From positions 1 through 64,000 of the forward strand of contig JAQUBZ010000012.1 in assembly GCA_028686425.1 (NCBI GenBank): 64,000 nt of DNA. The letters run 5' to 3'. The notes under the pieces were generated by a model. The model was not told the DNA's origin. It made no database searches and was given only the letters and a program-made list of their open reading frames with translations. The translations under genes and the position numbers were made by a program. Positions 5,000 through 36,044 of the stretch are shown piece by piece. The number at the start of each line of letters is the position of its first letter. Within the stretch, counting starts at the first letter, position 1. Origin of the DNA: Bacteroidales bacterium. GTDB lineage: Bacteria > Bacteroidota > Bacteroidia > Bacteroidales > UBA932.

Positions 5000-5251
5000 A
5001 TGAGAAAAAAAACAATCACCATTGTTGGATCATTCTTGATCTTTGCTATGTCTATTGGGTTATATGCCAATAGTCTTCAATTTATCGAACAATTAAGTCA
5101 ACAAAATGTTGAAGCACTGACTTATGAAGAATGTTTTAATAAGCCTGGCTACAATGATGGACATTGTGAGACCGACGGAACTATTTACCTTTGTGCAAAT
5201 AAGGGTTTTTTAGAGCGTAGAGATTGTGTCAAAGATACAGCTATTGACTAA
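5000..5251 (+). CDS. NVEALA-family secreted Cys-rich peptide
   Basis: 83 residues from ATG 5000. The upstream TTG at 4979 in the same frame is rejected because the ATG is followed directly by a normal signal peptide: MRKK, then a hydrophobic core to about residue 23 (LYAN). The family signature NVEALT follows at about residues 37-42. The C-terminal 40 residues carry four Cys (ECF, HCE, LCA, DCV) and many charged or polar residues, compatible with two disulfides. NVEALA proteins are small Bacteroidetes proteins of unknown function, usually found in runs with propeller lipoproteins. It lies under the conserved promoter at 4891-4922 and is followed 3 bases later by a DUF4221 lipoprotein gene. 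Confidence 0.8.
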   Translation: MRKKTITIVGSFLIFAMSIGLYANSLQFIEQLSQQNVEALTYEECFNKPGYNDGHCETDGTIYLCANKGFLERRDCVKDTAID

Positions 5252-26860: not shown

Positions 26861-27883
26861 ATGGCAAAACACGAGATAAAAACATCGGATATGAACAACG
26901 ATATTTTCAGCCAAGCGGAAGACATTCTCAATCGGGCAAAAACAGTTGTAATAGCAACAGTAAACAAAGAAATGGTACATGCTTACTATAAAATTGGCGA
27001 AATGATAGTGTTTGAAGAGCAGAAAGGAGAATTGCGTGCCGAATATGGGCAATATCTTGTCAAAGAACTTTCGGAAAGACTTACCCTGAAATTTGGCAAA
27101 GGTTTCTCTGTTACCAATATCAAGCAAATGCGTACATTTTTTCTTACCTATTCAAAAGGTCAGACACTGTCTGACCAATTTAATTTGAGTTGGTAGCATT
27201 ATCTGTTTTTGATGAGAATTGACAATTTACAGGAAAGAACATTTTAGGAGATTGAAGCCTCTAACGCTTCGTGGAGCCTTCGTGAAATGAAACGTCAGTT
27301 TGAATCAGGGCTATATGAAAGATTGGTACTGAGCAGAGATAAAGATGAAGTGAAAAAATTGTCGGAGGTAGGATTGATAGTGGAGCAACCATCTGATGCC
27401 GTGAAAGACCCATATATTCTGGAATTTTTAGGACTGCCCGAACAACAGCACTATTCGGAGTCGGAACTCGAACAACGATTGATTGACAAACTCGAAGATT
27501 TTTTGCTTGAACTTGGCAAGGGTTACACATTTGTAGGAAGACAAGTGCGAATATCGTTTGATGAAAAACATTTTTATGTAGATTTGGTGTTTTACAATAG
27601 GTTATTGCAATGTTTTGTACTAATTGACCTTAAAATAGGTGAAATATCCCACCAAGATTTGGGACAAATGCAGATGTACGTAAACTATTACGACCGATTT
27701 GTTAAGTTGAATCACGAAAATAAAACCATTGGAATTGTGCTTTGCAAGAAAAAAGACAACACCTTGGTAGAAATCACTTTGCCTGAAAACAACCATCAGA
27801 TTTTTGCCAGCAAGTACCAAACCGTATTGCCATCGAAACAAGAATTGAAACAACTTATTGACAATAACGACATTGAGATATGA
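26861..27883 (+). pseudogene. DUF1016/YhcG-type PD-(D/E)xK nuclease, interrupted by two TAG codons
   Basis: One continuous frame of about 340 codons encodes the DUF1016 N-terminal domain (VNKEMVHAYYKIGEMIV, LSERLTLKFGKGFSVTNIKQMR) and the nuclease domain (YTFVGRQVRISFDEKHFYVDLVFYN, then CFVLIDLKIGEI). Two in-frame TAG stops interrupt it: W-TAG-HYLFLMRIDN (27194-27196), where Ser is usual, and F-TAG-EIEASNASWSLREMKRQF (27245-27247), where Tyr is usual. No frameshift is present. The catalytic D...DLK pattern remains. The 3' part could restart at ATG 27287, but the domain linker would be lost. These proteins usually accompany type I restriction systems. Confidence 0.75.
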
Positions 27884-28146
27884 AAGCTATTGAAAATCAA
27901 TACCGATATTTCTTTAATGGATATAATGGCATTAGACAAAGTTCAGAAACGGCTGCCAATAGAGTAATGGCAGACTATGTACAGAATAAAACGTTCAATA
28001 AAAAATATTATAGTGACCTTGTATATGAATTAATCAAAAAAACAGAATTAATAGGAACAAAACGTAAGAAAATAAATAGTCTATTAATTACAAAATGGCA
28101 ATGTCCGCGTTACTACCCACAAACCCCTAATTGTAAATTGAAATAA
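27880..28146 (+). CDS. Hypothetical 88-residue protein
   Basis: 88 residues starting with an ATG that overlaps the stop of the DUF1016 pseudogene (ATGA at 27880), so it was probably cotranslated with it. It is rich in Tyr, Asn and Lys (YRYFFNGYNGIRQSSETAANRVMADYV). The last ~15 residues are Pro/Cys-rich and look like out-of-frame extension, so it may be the truncated start of a longer protein. No family is recognised. There is no signal peptide or membrane segment. Confidence 0.35.
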   Translation: MKAIENQYRYFFNGYNGIRQSSETAANRVMADYVQNKTFNKKYYSDLVYELIKKTELIGTKRKKINSLLITKWQCPRYYPQTPNCKLK

Positions 28147-30204: not shown

Positions 30205-30215
30205 AACACATAATA

Positions 30216-30482
30216 ATGAGAATTAACAATAAGCTTAAAATAAGAACAATAGCAGGAGAATCGGTGGTGATAATGAACTCTGCCGGCTCTGCCGACATGA
30301 CAAAAGTCATCTCTTTGAACGGTACAGCCAAATGGCTGTGGGACAATCTTTCCGATAAAGAGTTTAGTGAAGGAGATGTTGCAGATCTTCTTTGTTCTCA
30401 TTACGATGTACAATCTTCTGTTGCTCAGGTTGATGCAAAGGCATGGGTGGCCAAAATGAAGGATTGTGGAGCAATTGTTTAA
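30216..30482 (+). CDS. PqqD-family peptide chaperone (RiPP recognition element)
   Basis: 88 residues from ATG 30216. It has the PqqD fold pattern: KLKIRTIAGESVVI (beta-hairpin), then VISLNGTAKWLWDNLS, FSEGDVADLLCSHYDV and an amphipathic C-terminal helix. The hallmark is L-N-x-x-[AG]-x-x-[IL]-W. Such proteins bind the leader of a precursor peptide and present it to modifying enzymes in RiPP pathways. The 3' end overlaps the next gene by 17 bases. No precursor gene, radical SAM enzyme or cyclase is adjacent, which is unusual. Confidence 0.8.
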   Translation: MRINNKLKIRTIAGESVVIMNSAGSADMTKVISLNGTAKWLWDNLSDKEFSEGDVADLLCSHYDVQSSVAQVDAKAWVAKMKDCGAIV

Positions 30483-32154
30483 GATAATACCTCAAGAATA
30501 TAGGAAGAAGGGGTTGAAAGTTGCTCTTCTCGTTCCGTTCAAGGCTGTAATAGAGTTAGTCGGAGTTGCAGCGCTGATTCCGATGTTGCTCCTCGTTTTG
30601 AACAAGGAGGCTTTCGTCGGCTCATTTTTAGAAAAAATATACGATTTTGCGGGATTTACCGACTCTTTCAGCTTTGCGACAGCCGTTTCTATTTCGATAG
30701 TTATCATTTTGATTATCAAAAGTATAATAAGTTTATGGATAGTCAATTATCAGAATAACTATCTTCTCTCTTTATATGGCTATTTTTCGGGACGATTGTT
30801 CAGTAATCTGTATAACAAGGGTTTACTTTTCATCAAATCATCAAATTCTTCCGAATTGACCTATAATATCAGTGCCGTATGTTATAGTTTCGTGGTTTCT
30901 TATCTGTCCGGAATTATGCATCTGGCGGGTGAGTTTATTTTCGCGGTGTTGATGCTGACCGGATTGATGCTGTATTCCGTCAAGGCTGCCCTGCTGTCAT
31001 TTGCCGCGTTTGTCCCCGTAATACTGATTTATCTGATTGCTGTAAGAAAGCCGCTCTCAAGATACGGCAGGCTTGAAAACAAGGCGAAGCGCAAGCAGTA
31101 CAAGTTGATTAATGAAACTTTCAGGGGATATGCCGAGGTAGAAGTGAATGATGCTTTTCCCCTTATCAGGGAGCGATTTTCCGAAGGGTTGAAAGATATA
31201 GCTTCATATAGGGTAAAGTCAAGTCTGATGCAGACTATTCCAAGTTATCTTGTTGAAATAGTGGTAGTGGTAGTTGTTGTCGGAATGCTGATTTTCGGTA
31301 TTGATGCAAACAATCCTGCCAACGTGATGTTTATCGGGGTCTTTTCAGTGGCTCTTCTCAGGCTGTTGCCGACGGTAAAATCCATAATCAGTTCATGGTC
31401 CGCCATAAAAGCCACAAAATATACTCGTGACGTGGTATCGCAAATAGACGATGCATGCGGTTACAAATATTCCTATAAATATAGTCCCGATTCCGAAATA
31501 ATATTTTCAGACGCAATAAGGGCGAGTGAATTGTCATTTTCTTTTCCTTCGGGAGAAGTGTTGCACTATCCGCCGTTCAAGATTAAAAAGGGCGAAAGAT
31601 ACGGTATCAAAGGGAGGACCGGAGTAGGTAAAACCACTCTGTTTAATTTATTGCTCGGTCTTTATTTTCCTGAAAATGGAATAATTGAAATAGATGGTGT
31701 GCCACTGACGGGAGAAAATGTGGAGCAGTGGCACAAGATAGTGGGGTATGTACCGCAGGATGTATTTATTTCGGATGCTTCTGTAGCTGAAAATGTTGCC
31801 CTCGGATACGAGCCGTGCAATATCGATCGCGAGAGGGTGCAATCCGTACTTGAGCAGGTCTCCCTAAAGAGCTTTACGGATAGTCTGCCGGACGGAATAG
31901 ATACTGTAATCGGAGAGAATGGAAACAGGGTGTCGGGAGGGCAGAGACAGCGCATCGGCATTGCCCGTGCCCTTTACAAACGGGCGCAGGTGCTGTTTTT
32001 CGATGAGGCTACTTCTTCTCTCGATTCTCAAACCGAAAATGAGGTCAATCAGGCCCTTGAGTCTCTATCTATACAGAAGAAAGAATTAACGATAATTGTA
32101 ATATCTCACAGAGAGAGTACTTTGGCTTTTTGTGATAACATTTTGGAGATTTGA
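30466..32154 (+). CDS. ABC exporter, fused membrane and ATPase domains
   Basis: 562 residues from GTG 30466. Six membrane segments span about 20-330 without an N-terminal C39 peptidase domain. The ATPase domain has Walker A GRTGVGKTT (about 383-391), Q-loop GYVPQDVF, signature VSGGQRQRIGIARAL (about 488-502), Walker B VLFFDEATSSLD and the His switch VISHR. It is a type IV half-transporter that should homodimerise. Overlap with the pqqD-like gene and close spacing to the kinase-like gene support export of a modified peptide or a related envelope molecule (inference). Lipid or glycan export is the alternative. Confidence 0.9.
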   Translation: MEQLFKIIPQEYRKKGLKVALLVPFKAVIELVGVAALIPMLLLVLNKEAFVGSFLEKIYDFAGFTDSFSFATAVSISIVIILIIKSIISLWIVNYQNNYLLSLYGYFSGRLFSNLYNKGLLFIKSSNSSELTYNISAVCYSFVVSYLSGIMHLAGEFIFAVLMLTGLMLYSVKAALLSFAAFVPVILIYLIAVRKPLSRYGRLENKAKRKQYKLINETFRGYAEVEVNDAFPLIRERFSEGLKDIASYRVKSSLMQTIPSYLVEIVVVVVVVGMLIFGIDANNPANVMFIGVFSVALLRLLPTVKSIISSWSAIKATKYTRDVVSQIDDACGYKYSYKYSPDSEIIFSDAIRASELSFSFPSGEVLHYPPFKIKKGERYGIKGRTGVGKTTLFNLLLGLYFPENGIIEIDGVPLTGENVEQWHKIVGYVPQDVFISDASVAENVALGYEPCNIDRERVQSVLEQVSLKSFTDSLPDGIDTVIGENGNRVSGGQRQRIGIARALYKRAQVLFFDEATSSLDSQTENEVNQALESLSIQKKELTIIVISHRESTLAFCDNILEI

Positions 32155-32156
32155 TT

Positions 32157-33071
32157 ATGAGTGTCGATCATTATATCATAGGTGGACTTGGCGTTCAAAT
32201 AACATCAGATCTTTCGGCTCCTCTCTCACGCATAGGAGGGTTTTCCCTATTCGCAAATGACCATGGATCCGACTTTTCTCTTTCTCTGAAAATGGATACG
32301 ACATCGTCAGGAGATGAATTGGAAGCCCATTATGCAGATTTTATAGAGGACAGGCTGATTTACTCGGTCAATACTGAAGAACTTGGGACGCTATATCATT
32401 ACTCCGATTCGGAAGGGAGATATATTTTCAGAATGGTCGAGCCTGACGGTAAAAGGACCATAATTGTGATTGACTGCAATTCCGGAGGACAATTAATTGA
32501 TGTCAAGTCCAATTGGGACGAAATAAGAAGTGCAGGTGCATTGAGATTTTCACTATGGGTGGCCTATTCGATTACTTCCGCATACAATCTGAGGATTCCT
32601 ATTCACTCTTCGACTATAGTATATGACAGAAAGGCTGTGCTGTTTTTAGGTGAATCGGGTACAGGCAAGAGTACACATACGAAGTTGTGGCTTAATAATA
32701 TCCCGGGAGCTTTCTTACTGAATGACGACTGCCCGATAGTCAATATTGTTTCTGGCCAAGTTGTAGTATATGGCTCTCCATGGAGTGGCAAGACACCTTG
32801 CTATGTCAATGAACATTACCCCGTTGCAGCTTTTGTGAGGATAGTTCGTGCTCCATACAACAAGATGACGAAGCTCTCCAATCTCGGTGCATTTGCAGCA
32901 TTATATCCATCCTGCCCGCCGGCATTGGCCAATGACACACCACTTTCCGATATTATCTGCCAAATATTGTCTTCAATTATCGAAAGAGTACCGGTGTACA
33001 GGCTGGAATGTCTTCCGAACAGCGATGCAGCACTTCATTCTTTTAATACTATCTTTACAGATGAACAATAG
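32157..33071 (+). CDS. HPr kinase/PEPCK-like P-loop protein
   Basis: 304 residues from ATG 32157. The Walker A motif LFLGESGTGKSTHTKLW (about 161-177) and the LLNDDCPIV segment (about 186-194) are the ATP-binding and acidic motifs of HprK-like kinases. The pattern IPIHSSTIVY before the P-loop and GSPWSGKTPCY after it match the HprK-like proteins found in lasso-peptide and other RiPP loci, rather than the genuine PTS regulator HPrK/P. A possible role is phosphorylation of a peptide Ser/Thr. It overlaps the S26-like gene by 11 bases. Confidence 0.75.
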   Translation: MSVDHYIIGGLGVQITSDLSAPLSRIGGFSLFANDHGSDFSLSLKMDTTSSGDELEAHYADFIEDRLIYSVNTEELGTLYHYSDSEGRYIFRMVEPDGKRTIIVIDCNSGGQLIDVKSNWDEIRSAGALRFSLWVAYSITSAYNLRIPIHSSTIVYDRKAVLFLGESGTGKSTHTKLWLNNIPGAFLLNDDCPIVNIVSGQVVVYGSPWSGKTPCYVNEHYPVAAFVRIVRAPYNKMTKLSNLGAFAALYPSCPPALANDTPLSDIICQILSSIIERVPVYRLECLPNSDAALHSFNTIFTDEQ

Positions 33072-33549
33072 CACCACTATACCAAACAATATCTTCTTTT
33101 CCGAGGTGGAGTCTATGATAAAGGAGGGGCAGAAAGTCAGAATCAAAGTTATCGGGACAAGTATGCAGCCAACCTTCAGACATTCGAGAGACGAAATCGT
33201 CCTATCTTCTTTTGAACCAATGCAACTTTTGCCCTTGAGCGTCGTCTTATTTAATAGGACACCCTCATCAAAATGTGTTCATCGGATTGTAAGGAGGAAC
33301 GGAGATATTCTCTTCATCAGAGGGGACGGCAATTACGGTTCGTTTGAAATAGCTAATGTTGAAGATGTTACAGCTTTGGTTGTCGGTGGAACAATGCGTG
33401 ATGGACGTCCATTTTCAATTAATGACTTAAAATGGAAGAGATGGTCGGCTTTCTGGGTAAAAATATATCCCCTGAGGCTCGCCTATTTCAGGACAAAACA
33501 TTTTTTAGGAACTATATATAGAAAACTTTTTAAACATATTACCTTATGA
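33061..33549 (+). CDS. S24/S26-family peptidase with Ser-His type active site
   Basis: 162 residues from ATG 33061. The nucleophile motif is VIGTSMQPTF (Ser34). The general base is probably His74 in CVHRIVRRNG, as in SipW/Sec11-like signal peptidases that use His instead of Lys; Lys71 is nearby. A GDGNY motif (about 88-92) corresponds to the GD(N) box. There is no clear N-terminal membrane anchor. The basic, aromatic C-terminal part could be membrane-associated. Similar small peptidases occur with PqqD- and HprK-like genes in RiPP-type loci, where they may remove leaders. Its stop overlaps the next ATG (ATGA at 33546). Confidence 0.75.
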   Translation: MNNSTTIPNNIFFSEVESMIKEGQKVRIKVIGTSMQPTFRHSRDEIVLSSFEPMQLLPLSVVLFNRTPSSKCVHRIVRRNGDILFIRGDGNYGSFEIANVEDVTALVVGGTMRDGRPFSINDLKWKRWSAFWVKIYPLRLAYFRTKHFLGTIYRKLFKHITL

Positions 33550-36044
33550 AACAATTTCTACTGATACTTTTGACGGGGCTGTTGATATTTTCCCCTGTTC
33601 AAATGGATGCACAGCGCAAAAACAAACGTCAGGCACAAAAAAGCGAGCAAACCGCAACTCCTGCCGACAGTACCAAAAAACAAGCTCCGAAAGGGCCTGT
33701 CTCTATCGAAAAATTCCTAAAAAAGGATGCTTCAAAAATGGAAGGAATGACCACTGTTTATAAGCAGGACGACAAATATTATTTTGCCATTCCCGATTCA
33801 TTATTTGGCAAAGAACTATTGTTGGTGTCAAGAGTATCCAAATCGGCAGCAGGGATGAGAGGTTCTTTCAGCGGATATGCAGGGGATCAGATTAACGAAG
33901 GACTTTTCAGATTTGAAAAGGGGCCGAATAACAAGATATTCCTCCGCTCGGTGTTTACGAGAGAACGCTCCTTAAGCGAGGATCGACCGATGTATCGCAA
34001 TTTACAGAACTCCAATCTCAATGCAATTGTAGGCTCATTCGACATCAAGGCATGGAACAATGAGAAAAACCTCTTCATAATTGATGTGACCGACTTCTTC
34101 ATGGCAGACTCCGAACTGTTCTATTTTTCAAAGAGGGGCAAATCATCTTTCAAACTCGGAGGTCAGGATAAAGAGAAATCTTACATCGAAAGCATCAAGA
34201 CATACCCTATCAATACCGAAGTGAAGGTTGTAAAGACTTTTGCTAAACAGGAATCTGCCGGAACTGCCACATTTGAGTTCAACTGCTCTTTTGTGATGCT
34301 TCCCGAAGTGCCTATGACACCGAGATATTATGACGAAAGGGTGGGCTATTTTACAGCAAACTATACCGATTTCGACAAAAATCCGCAAGGTGTCGAAAGT
34401 GTCAAGATGATTACACGCTGGCGCCTTGAGCCTAAACCTGAAGATATTGAAAAATATAAGAGAGGAGAACTTGTCGAACCTGTCAAACCTATTGTATTCT
34501 ACATTGACCCTACAACTCCTAAAAAATGGGTTCCATATCTGATACAGGGTGTAAACGACTGGCAGCCACTATTTGAAAAGGCCGGTTTCAAAAATGCAAT
34601 TTATGCTCTTGAAGCTCCGACTGCGGAAGAGGATCCTACATGGTCTTTAGACGATGCAAGACACTCTGCAATAGTTTACAAACCATCTGATATTCCTAAT
34701 GCAAGCGGTCCTCACGTACACGACCCTCGTTCGGGCGAGATTATCGAAAGTCATGTCAATTGGTATCACAATGTGATGTCTCTGCTTCGCAACTGGTATT
34801 TCATCCAGTGCTCACCTGTCGATACAGCTGCACGCAAGATGGTATTTGATGATGAACTTATGGGGCAACTTATCAGATTTGTATCTTCTCACGAAGTTGG
34901 TCATACTCTCGGACTGCGCCACAATTTTGCAGGTTCTGCTCAATTTACGGTCGAGCAGCTCAGAGATCCTAAATTCCTTGCAGAACACGGACACACTACA
35001 TCTATCATGGACTATTCAAGATTCAATTTTGTGGCTCAGCCCGGTGACAATATTCCTCGCGAATGTTTGTTTCCTCGCCTTGGAACTTATGATTTCTGGG
35101 CCATCGAATGGGGTTACAGACGTTTTCTCGACATTGAAGATCCTGACAAAGAGCTCTCTATGCTTAATAAGTGGGTGATTGACAAGACCAAGGATCCTTT
35201 GTATTTCTTTGGTACCGAATCAAGTCCGAGCGATCCCCGTTACCAATCTGAAGACCTCGGCTCAAACCAGATGGAAACATGTTCTCTCGGAATCAAGAAT
35301 CTTCAATTTATAATGGACCACCTGATTGAATGGACTTCCGAACCTAATAAAGACTATTCCAACCTGAAAATACTTCACAACGAAGTCATTTCTCAATATC
35401 GCCGTTATATCGGTCATGTTGCCAAATGGGTTGGAGGTGTATATGAGACACCTAAGACTGTCGAAATGGAAGGTGATATTTACACCCCTGTTCCAAAAGA
35501 ACGTCAGGTTGAGGCGATGAATTTCTTGAACAAATACGTCTTCCAGCCTCAGGAATGGCTTGTCCCTGACGATATTATGAATAAATTGGTTTCCAAACCC
35601 GAACTTGTACTCGACAACACCTACAAGAGCGTATTCTCCGCACTGCTTGTCAAGAGAGTGATGTTGAATCTTTATGAAGCAGAGCTTCAAAATGGCTCAA
35701 AAGCTTACACCATGAATGATTTGTTCAAAGACCTTAACAAAAATGTATGGGGCAATCTCGCTTCCGGAAAAACTGCCAATCCTTATCAACGTCTGCTTCA
35801 AAAGTCTTATACAAATGCACTTTGCGGACTGTTTACGGGAGAAACTTCCATTATGAGACCGGGAGTGTCAATGGCAAAGGACAATACTGATATTGTATCG
35901 ACTATTTACTATCAGCTGACAGACCTTCAGAAAAGACTGAAATCTTCACCTGCTACCGATATTACTACCAAAGCGCATAATGCCTATTTAGTAAAAGTGA
36001 TTGATCAGGCTATTGAAGACGGACTGAAAGGAAGTAAAAAATAA
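33546..36044 (+). CDS. Secreted zinc metalloprotease (DUF5117/DUF5118 type)
   Basis: 832 residues. A signal peptide at 1-22 ends QMDAQ. A Lys/Gln/Pro-rich linker (about 23-50) is followed by the DUF5118/DUF5117 region (FLKKDASKMEGMTTVYKQDDKYYFAIPD). The zinc site SHEVGHTLGLRHNF lies at about 448-461 (H-E-x-x-H-x-x-G-x-x-H, metzincin-type), with a Met-turn candidate SIMDYS about 45 residues later. It is a common Bacteroidetes periplasmic or outer-membrane protease. What is notable is its 4-base overlap with the S26-like gene, which ties it to the putative peptide maturation operon. A bidirectional terminator follows. Confidence 0.88.
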   Translation: MKQFLLILLTGLLIFSPVQMDAQRKNKRQAQKSEQTATPADSTKKQAPKGPVSIEKFLKKDASKMEGMTTVYKQDDKYYFAIPDSLFGKELLLVSRVSKSAAGMRGSFSGYAGDQINEGLFRFEKGPNNKIFLRSVFTRERSLSEDRPMYRNLQNSNLNAIVGSFDIKAWNNEKNLFIIDVTDFFMADSELFYFSKRGKSSFKLGGQDKEKSYIESIKTYPINTEVKVVKTFAKQESAGTATFEFNCSFVMLPEVPMTPRYYDERVGYFTANYTDFDKNPQGVESVKMITRWRLEPKPEDIEKYKRGELVEPVKPIVFYIDPTTPKKWVPYLIQGVNDWQPLFEKAGFKNAIYALEAPTAEEDPTWSLDDARHSAIVYKPSDIPNASGPHVHDPRSGEIIESHVNWYHNVMSLLRNWYFIQCSPVDTAARKMVFDDELMGQLIRFVSSHEVGHTLGLRHNFAGSAQFTVEQLRDPKFLAEHGHTTSIMDYSRFNFVAQPGDNIPRECLFPRLGTYDFWAIEWGYRRFLDIEDPDKELSMLNKWVIDKTKDPLYFFGTESSPSDPRYQSEDLGSNQMETCSLGIKNLQFIMDHLIEWTSEPNKDYSNLKILHNEVISQYRRYIGHVAKWVGGVYETPKTVEMEGDIYTPVPKERQVEAMNFLNKYVFQPQEWLVPDDIMNKLVSKPELVLDNTYKSVFSALLVKRVMLNLYEAELQNGSKAYTMNDLFKDLNKNVWGNLASGKTANPYQRLLQKSYTNALCGLFTGETSIMRPGVSMAKDNTDIVSTIYYQLTDLQKRLKSSPATDITTKAHNAYLVKVIDQAIEDGLKGSKK

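Follow-up and report, generated by a model that had tools for sequence, protein, structure and literature searches.

Five genes lie head to tail between positions 30,216 and 36,044 of the 64,000-nucleotide stretch of Bacteroidales DNA that we analysed (the window), and they raise the question whether they form a single peptide-maturing system, which of them belong to it, and on what substrate it acts. The initial annotation had described a minimal system for peptide phosphorylation, cleavage and export. This description held for four of the genes, a RiPP module with no radical SAM enzyme, cyclase or B2 protease and with precursors apparently encoded in trans; it did not hold for the fifth, a metalloprotease, which is not a member.

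The four-gene module and its boundaries

The first gene (30216..30482, + strand) encodes an 88-residue PqqD/B1-type RiPP recognition element (RRE; PF05402, E = 1.8e-12) and gave the only PqqD match in the source genome of 2.2 Mb and 51 contigs. It is followed by a PglK/MsbA-like ABC exporter with membrane and ATPase domains fused in one chain (30466..32154, +), in which Pfam calls ABC_tran and, as had been stated before, no C39 domain. Next come a predicted HprK-like peptide kinase of 304 residues counted from the ATG (32157..33071, +; from alignment and an AF2 model), a predicted soluble S26 leader peptidase of the SipW/SEC11 type with 162 residues (33061..33549, +; from alignment, profile and AF2 model) and the metalloprotease, recognized by its DUF4953/5117/5118 domains (33546..36044, +). 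The PqqD and ABC genes overlap by 17 bases, the HprK and S26 genes by 11, and the S26 and metalloprotease genes by 4, exactly as first described, with all five ORFs on the + strand; the gap between the ABC and HprK genes is 2 bases. An NTP_transf_5 gene is absent at this locus. At 26861-28146 of the window we also noticed a YhcG/PDDEXK nuclease gene that is apparently broken into several ORFs.

Of 100 genomes from the family of the source organism, 38 have an HprK homologue, and further homologues were found at no fewer than 80 additional named Bacteroidales loci. When 117 loci across the Bacteroidales were compared, the PqqD, ABC, HprK and S26 genes were neighbours in most of them, in two main gene orders, and a gene for an NTP_transf_5 protein (PF14907) often lay between them. 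PqqD, the ABC exporter, the HprK-like kinase and the S26 peptidase, often together with NTP_transf_5, are a conserved Bacteroidales module. Human isolates carry it complete: Phocaeicola massiliensis has the module and a peptide of the family described below, and Prevotella sp. oral taxon 299 has the module, with no peptide seen near it. Among cultured gut commensals, P. massiliensis TSDC17.2-1.1 and Phocaeicola sartorii have the full system. SpoU and GlyA were considered as partners and rejected, since they are not kept beside other modules, and genes nearby for AddAB, MATE and P-type ATPase proteins were dismissed as flanking genes specific to the lineage.

The metalloprotease had been counted into one five-gene system, but it was found next to the module at none of 37 homologous loci of the same family. 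Its orthologue is present in seven genomes of the same genus. In the six of these with enough flanking sequence to read the junction (L290-L295), glyA, spoU and the metalloprotease gene are contiguous with a short gap and the module is absent; in one of the six, TPR and Rnf genes follow the metalloprotease gene as they do in the window. No close homologue of the ABC exporter was detected in the 40 genomes of the genus that were searched. Because these six relatives have the metalloprotease gene straight after spoU, module-free, the four-gene module was probably inserted at an otherwise contiguous spoU–metalloprotease junction, the segment missing there being 30205..33545 of the window (no strand assigned). 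The metalloprotease gene is part of the flanking DNA, and its 4-base overlap with the S26 gene would be a by-product of the insertion.

The only relative of the PqqD profile in the PDB was TfuB1, a lasso-peptide RRE solved with its leader, and N35 and D73 are invariant among 14 homologues. The kinase and the S26 peptidase are so divergent that they score below curated cut-offs. The kinase has a P-loop, and H148, K169, D188 and D189 (numbered from P0001, which starts at 32163) are invariant in 39 homologues; they correspond to the His-Lys-Asp-Asp residues that are essential in lasso-peptide kinases (PMC9266682). In its AF2 model (pLDDT 89) the fold corresponds to those of PEPCK and HPr kinase. 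An N-terminal membrane segment is absent from the S26 protein; S34, H74, D89 and E96 are invariant in 39 homologues, with D89 or E96 as candidate catalytic acid, and the nearest profile matches were SEC11C/SEC11A. Its AF2 model (pLDDT 95) points to a signal-peptidase/LexA-type fold, with signal peptidase SpsB as the best match. Judging from conservation and these models, both the kinase and the S26 peptidase look functional.

A peptide family that accompanies the module

Inside the window no precursor was found, even with relaxed peptide models. All small ORFs around the modules were clustered without bias, and pattern and profile searches then widened the result. The clustering gave one convincing family, of peptides of about 35-60 residues with the consensus YxxPx[VI]E..EV.VE[KQ]GFAxS and a variable, acidic, often Trp-ending tail after it; single clusters were discarded as chance or non-coding if they recurred in nothing but close relatives or lay antisense to conserved genes. 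YxxP is present in 112 of 113 peptides and V, I, L or M stands at +5 in 85. The spacing from Tyr to the Gly of GFA is 15 in 57 of 59 peptides, and a Ser or, in some, a Thr lies two residues past GFx in 59 of 66. In a related group VICxS replaces GFAxS. Per-site pS exceeded pN in all 13 of the 13 pairs that were sufficiently similar, and the peptides are therefore coding. The family is uncatalogued, as no Pfam or NCBIfam model matches it.

The peptide genes are mostly dispersed away from the module, with a maximum of 12 per genome. The source genome has three candidate precursors matching the family (C28:16901-17029, - strand; C9:12262-12396, - strand; C17:1716-1853, + strand), all on contigs other than that of the module and none linked to it, in agreement with the earlier supposition that the precursor is encoded elsewhere. 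At some other loci the peptide lies within the module or beside it: between the ABC and HprK genes (L032), immediately 3' of the S26 gene (L033), after the ABC gene (L063/L066) or as the first gene of the operon (L237); in G147 it leads the order peptide-HprK-S26-PqqD-NTase-ABC. NVEALA peptides had also been put forward as a possible substrate; this is unlikely, as the window contains a single NVEALA-like ORF (5000-5251), which lacks YxxP and begins with a hydrophobic N-terminus of the secretion type.

The distribution of the peptides was compared between 38 HprK-positive and 42 HprK-negative genomes of the family. With the first peptide model, peptides were found in 17/38 and 0/42 genomes, respectively, and after addition of the VICxS model in 31/38 and 3/42; when the genomes that supplied the seeds were left out, the counts were 20/27 and 3/42. 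Counted by genus, the difference was 12/12 versus 2/17 (p=2e-6); the genomes are related and the p-values, which take phylogeny into account only through this count by genus, are thus optimistic, but the genus-level contrast holds. In an independent order-wide sample, restricted to non-seed genomes, the counts were 5/15 versus 2/230, and one of the two exceptions (G166) has PqqD and NTP_transf_5 genes. Seven of the 38 module-positive family genomes gave no peptide, which is perhaps due to limited sensitivity of the models. A peptide match on contig C10 of genome G283 (L236), where PqqD and HprK were undetected in the genome, has no clear start codon in its frame and is a possible remnant.

Mfa-like fimbrillins, which are among the neighbours of the peptides described below, are common in module-negative genomes free of peptides (16 copies in G017). 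Because such fimbrillin-rich genomes are peptide-free, the peptides track the module and not the fimbrillins, and fimbrillin content was rejected as the cause of peptide presence. Taken together, the motif, the linkage and the co-occurrence indicate that the YxxP...GFAxS peptides are the likely precursors of the module. Orphan PqqD/HprK/S26 loci would be explained in the same way, by precursors in trans that neighbourhood-based genome mining misses.

Peptide genes and downstream lipoprotein genes

For 110 distinct peptides the sequence extends far enough downstream to assess the next gene. In 85 of these cases (77%) the next gene lies directly behind on the strand of the peptide gene and encodes a lipoprotein signal, at a median gap of 17 bases, compared with 140 of 1821 control genes (7.7%). 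The paired lipoproteins comprise Mfa-like, FISUMP, BspA-type or other leucine-rich repeat, DUF4465 and M64 peptidase proteins as well as unknowns, and from their families we infer that they are surface exposed. From the position of the peptide gene directly upstream of the lipoprotein gene one may speculate that the mature peptide acts together with its lipoprotein at the cell surface. We tentatively suggest, as an idea that may well prove wrong, that one module per genome matures dispersed phosphopeptides, each of them co-made with its own surface lipoprotein of the fimbrillin-like, leucine-rich-repeat or FISUMP type and acting on it or anchored to it, so that the whole would serve surface display in gut and oral Bacteroidales.

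On contig C9 of the source genome, a 6-base unit, TATCAT on the + strand of L154, is repeated 9.5 times and fills the spacer between the peptide stop and the lipoprotein start (L154:5683-5739), a possible phase-variation tract. The lipoprotein frame behind this peptide (L154:3647-5830) appears as two ORFs of 238 and 465 aa, which suggests a frameshift or an assembly error.

Proposed pathway, alternatives and known systems

Linear polyphosphorylated peptides (LPPs) were described from the lpp cluster of Paenibacillus alginolyticus by Popov et al. in May 2026 (PMC13381572). It seems very likely to us that the four genes of the window encode a trans-acting maturation and export machinery, a Bacteroidota branch of the LPP-type RiPPs, with precursors elsewhere in the genome. 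PqqD would bind the leader of these small peptides through YxxPx[VI]; YxxPx[L/V/I] is the motif that binds lasso and LPP leaders to discrete RREs (PMC10368454, PMC13381572). The HprK-like kinase would then phosphorylate a conserved acceptor close to where the core begins, the Ser/Thr of GFA-x-S/T, and in many relatives, not at the window locus, the NTP_transf_5 protein may add a further group. The soluble S26 peptidase, with the substrate presented by PqqD, would cut within GFAxS, either between F and A or between A and x, and the exporter would carry the core, which is acidic and often ends in Trp, across the inner membrane. Should the Ser be the third residue, as it is in LPPs, cleavage would fall between GF and AxS and place the Tyr at -17, its position in lasso leaders; should the signal-peptidase preference prevail, it would fall between GFA and xS, with the Tyr at -18. 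The proposed order of binding, phosphorylation, cleavage and export, drawn by homology from LPP and lasso biochemistry, is well supported by the comparison with LPPs.

The module might instead act on another substrate, for instance a lipid-linked glycan carried by the PglK/MsbA-like exporter, or an unrelated peptide. The YxxP...GFAxS peptides would then serve the lipoprotein genes as partners, regulatory or structural, and would merely share genomes with the module. This is consistent with PglK being the best family match of the exporter, which aligns over its full length to WlaB/PglK, and with the linkage of most peptides to lipoprotein genes and not to the module. Polysaccharide genes also surround some modules. 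An exclusive association with lipid or polysaccharide genes, in which no peptide appeared, had been named at the outset as the pattern that would speak against a peptide system; what we found was some loci among polysaccharide genes, together with a peptide family. The peptides, moreover, bear the leader motif that PqqD proteins of this class bind and a kinase acceptor where one is expected, they follow the module and not the fimbrillin genes, and some lie in the module's own operon. We therefore regard another substrate as improbable. A degraded or split lasso cluster, with its B2 protease and cyclase elsewhere, would account for the PqqD, kinase, NTP_transf_5 and exporter genes shared with paeninodin-type clusters (PMC9266682) and for the same YxxPxL motif, but the S26 peptidase is a conserved part of the module, neither a macrolactam cyclase nor a B2 protease is present in the module of the window or recurrent among the neighbour clusters of the 117 loci, and the acidic cores have no conserved ring-forming pattern; this origin is very unlikely. 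A five-gene system including the metalloprotease, perhaps working on NVEALA peptides, is hardly credible, for the 4-base overlap that favours it is outweighed by the 37 loci and the six module-free junctions mentioned above.

Returning to the trans-acting machinery, its nearest counterparts can be compared part by part. The S26 protein shares with the SipW/SEC11 peptidases (S26B) the GxSMxP and HR motifs, the Ser/His pair and the signal-peptidase-type fold; it differs in having no transmembrane segment and in being encoded in a RiPP module. With the phosphorylated lasso peptides paeninodin, pseudomycoidin and Bsf, the system has in common a B1-type PqqD, a His-Lys-Asp-Asp kinase, an ABC exporter, a YxxPxL-type leader at similar spacing and, in relatives of the window module, NTP_transf_5, whereas the macrolactam cyclase and the B2 cysteine protease are missing from the module and an S26 serine peptidase stands in place of the protease.

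The likeness to LPPs is closer. Their gene set is K, B, S, D and N; in P. alginolyticus the HprK-like LppK polyphosphorylates Ser3, an S3T change abolished phosphorylation, and the SipW-like LppS requires the RRE LppB to cut the leader (all PMC13381572). A discrete RRE, an HprK-like kinase, a SipW-like soluble signal peptidase and an MsbA-like exporter are all present in the Bacteroidales module, cyclase and B2 protease are absent, NTP_transf_5 is frequent, and the peptides have a YxxPxV leader, a Ser conserved near the core start and a variable C-terminus. The catalytic residues of LppS (S29, H68, D93) compare with S34, H74 and D89/E96 here, where D93 may match E96. One Bacillota cluster was compared directly, on plasmid pNP243 of Butyrivibrio fibrisolvens (L286), where HprK, a 57-residue YxxPxL ORF, PqqD and S26 lie in a row; its proteins are homologous to those of Bacteroidales over most of their length (S26, 95 bits; HprK, 131 bits; PqqD, 68 bits, as against 23 bits for a second PqqD of the locus). 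This cluster lies in a polysaccharide locus, and its 57-residue ORF is Cys-rich and annotated as hypothetical.

The differences concern mainly the peptides. Their leader runs on as EV.VE[KQ]GFA, in contrast to the LPP consensus YxxPxVLxHQxIxFETxxS (PMC13381572), of which HQxIxFET is not conserved; the spacing from Tyr to Ser is 19 compared with 18, and some peptides have Thr at the acceptor position, although S3T in the LPP gave no phosphorylation. The Bacteroidales precursors are scattered and paired with lipoprotein genes, the window locus is missing the NTP_transf_5 gene found at many homologous loci, and the host belongs to the Bacteroidota, whereas LPPs were stated to be restricted to Bacillota (PMC13381572); our literature search found no description of a Bacteroidales version. 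On the sequence comparison, the module appears to be of the LPP kind, in a Bacteroidota variant whose leader tail differs and whose precursors are dispersed, present in several copies and paired with lipoproteins. A type of module earlier described as Bacillota-confined would thus extend across gut and oral Bacteroidales, human isolates included. LPPs were described with no function assigned to them. The tight pairing of precursor and lipoprotein genes suggests a testable role at the cell surface; surface display, if true, would give a first hint of the function of LPP-type peptides.
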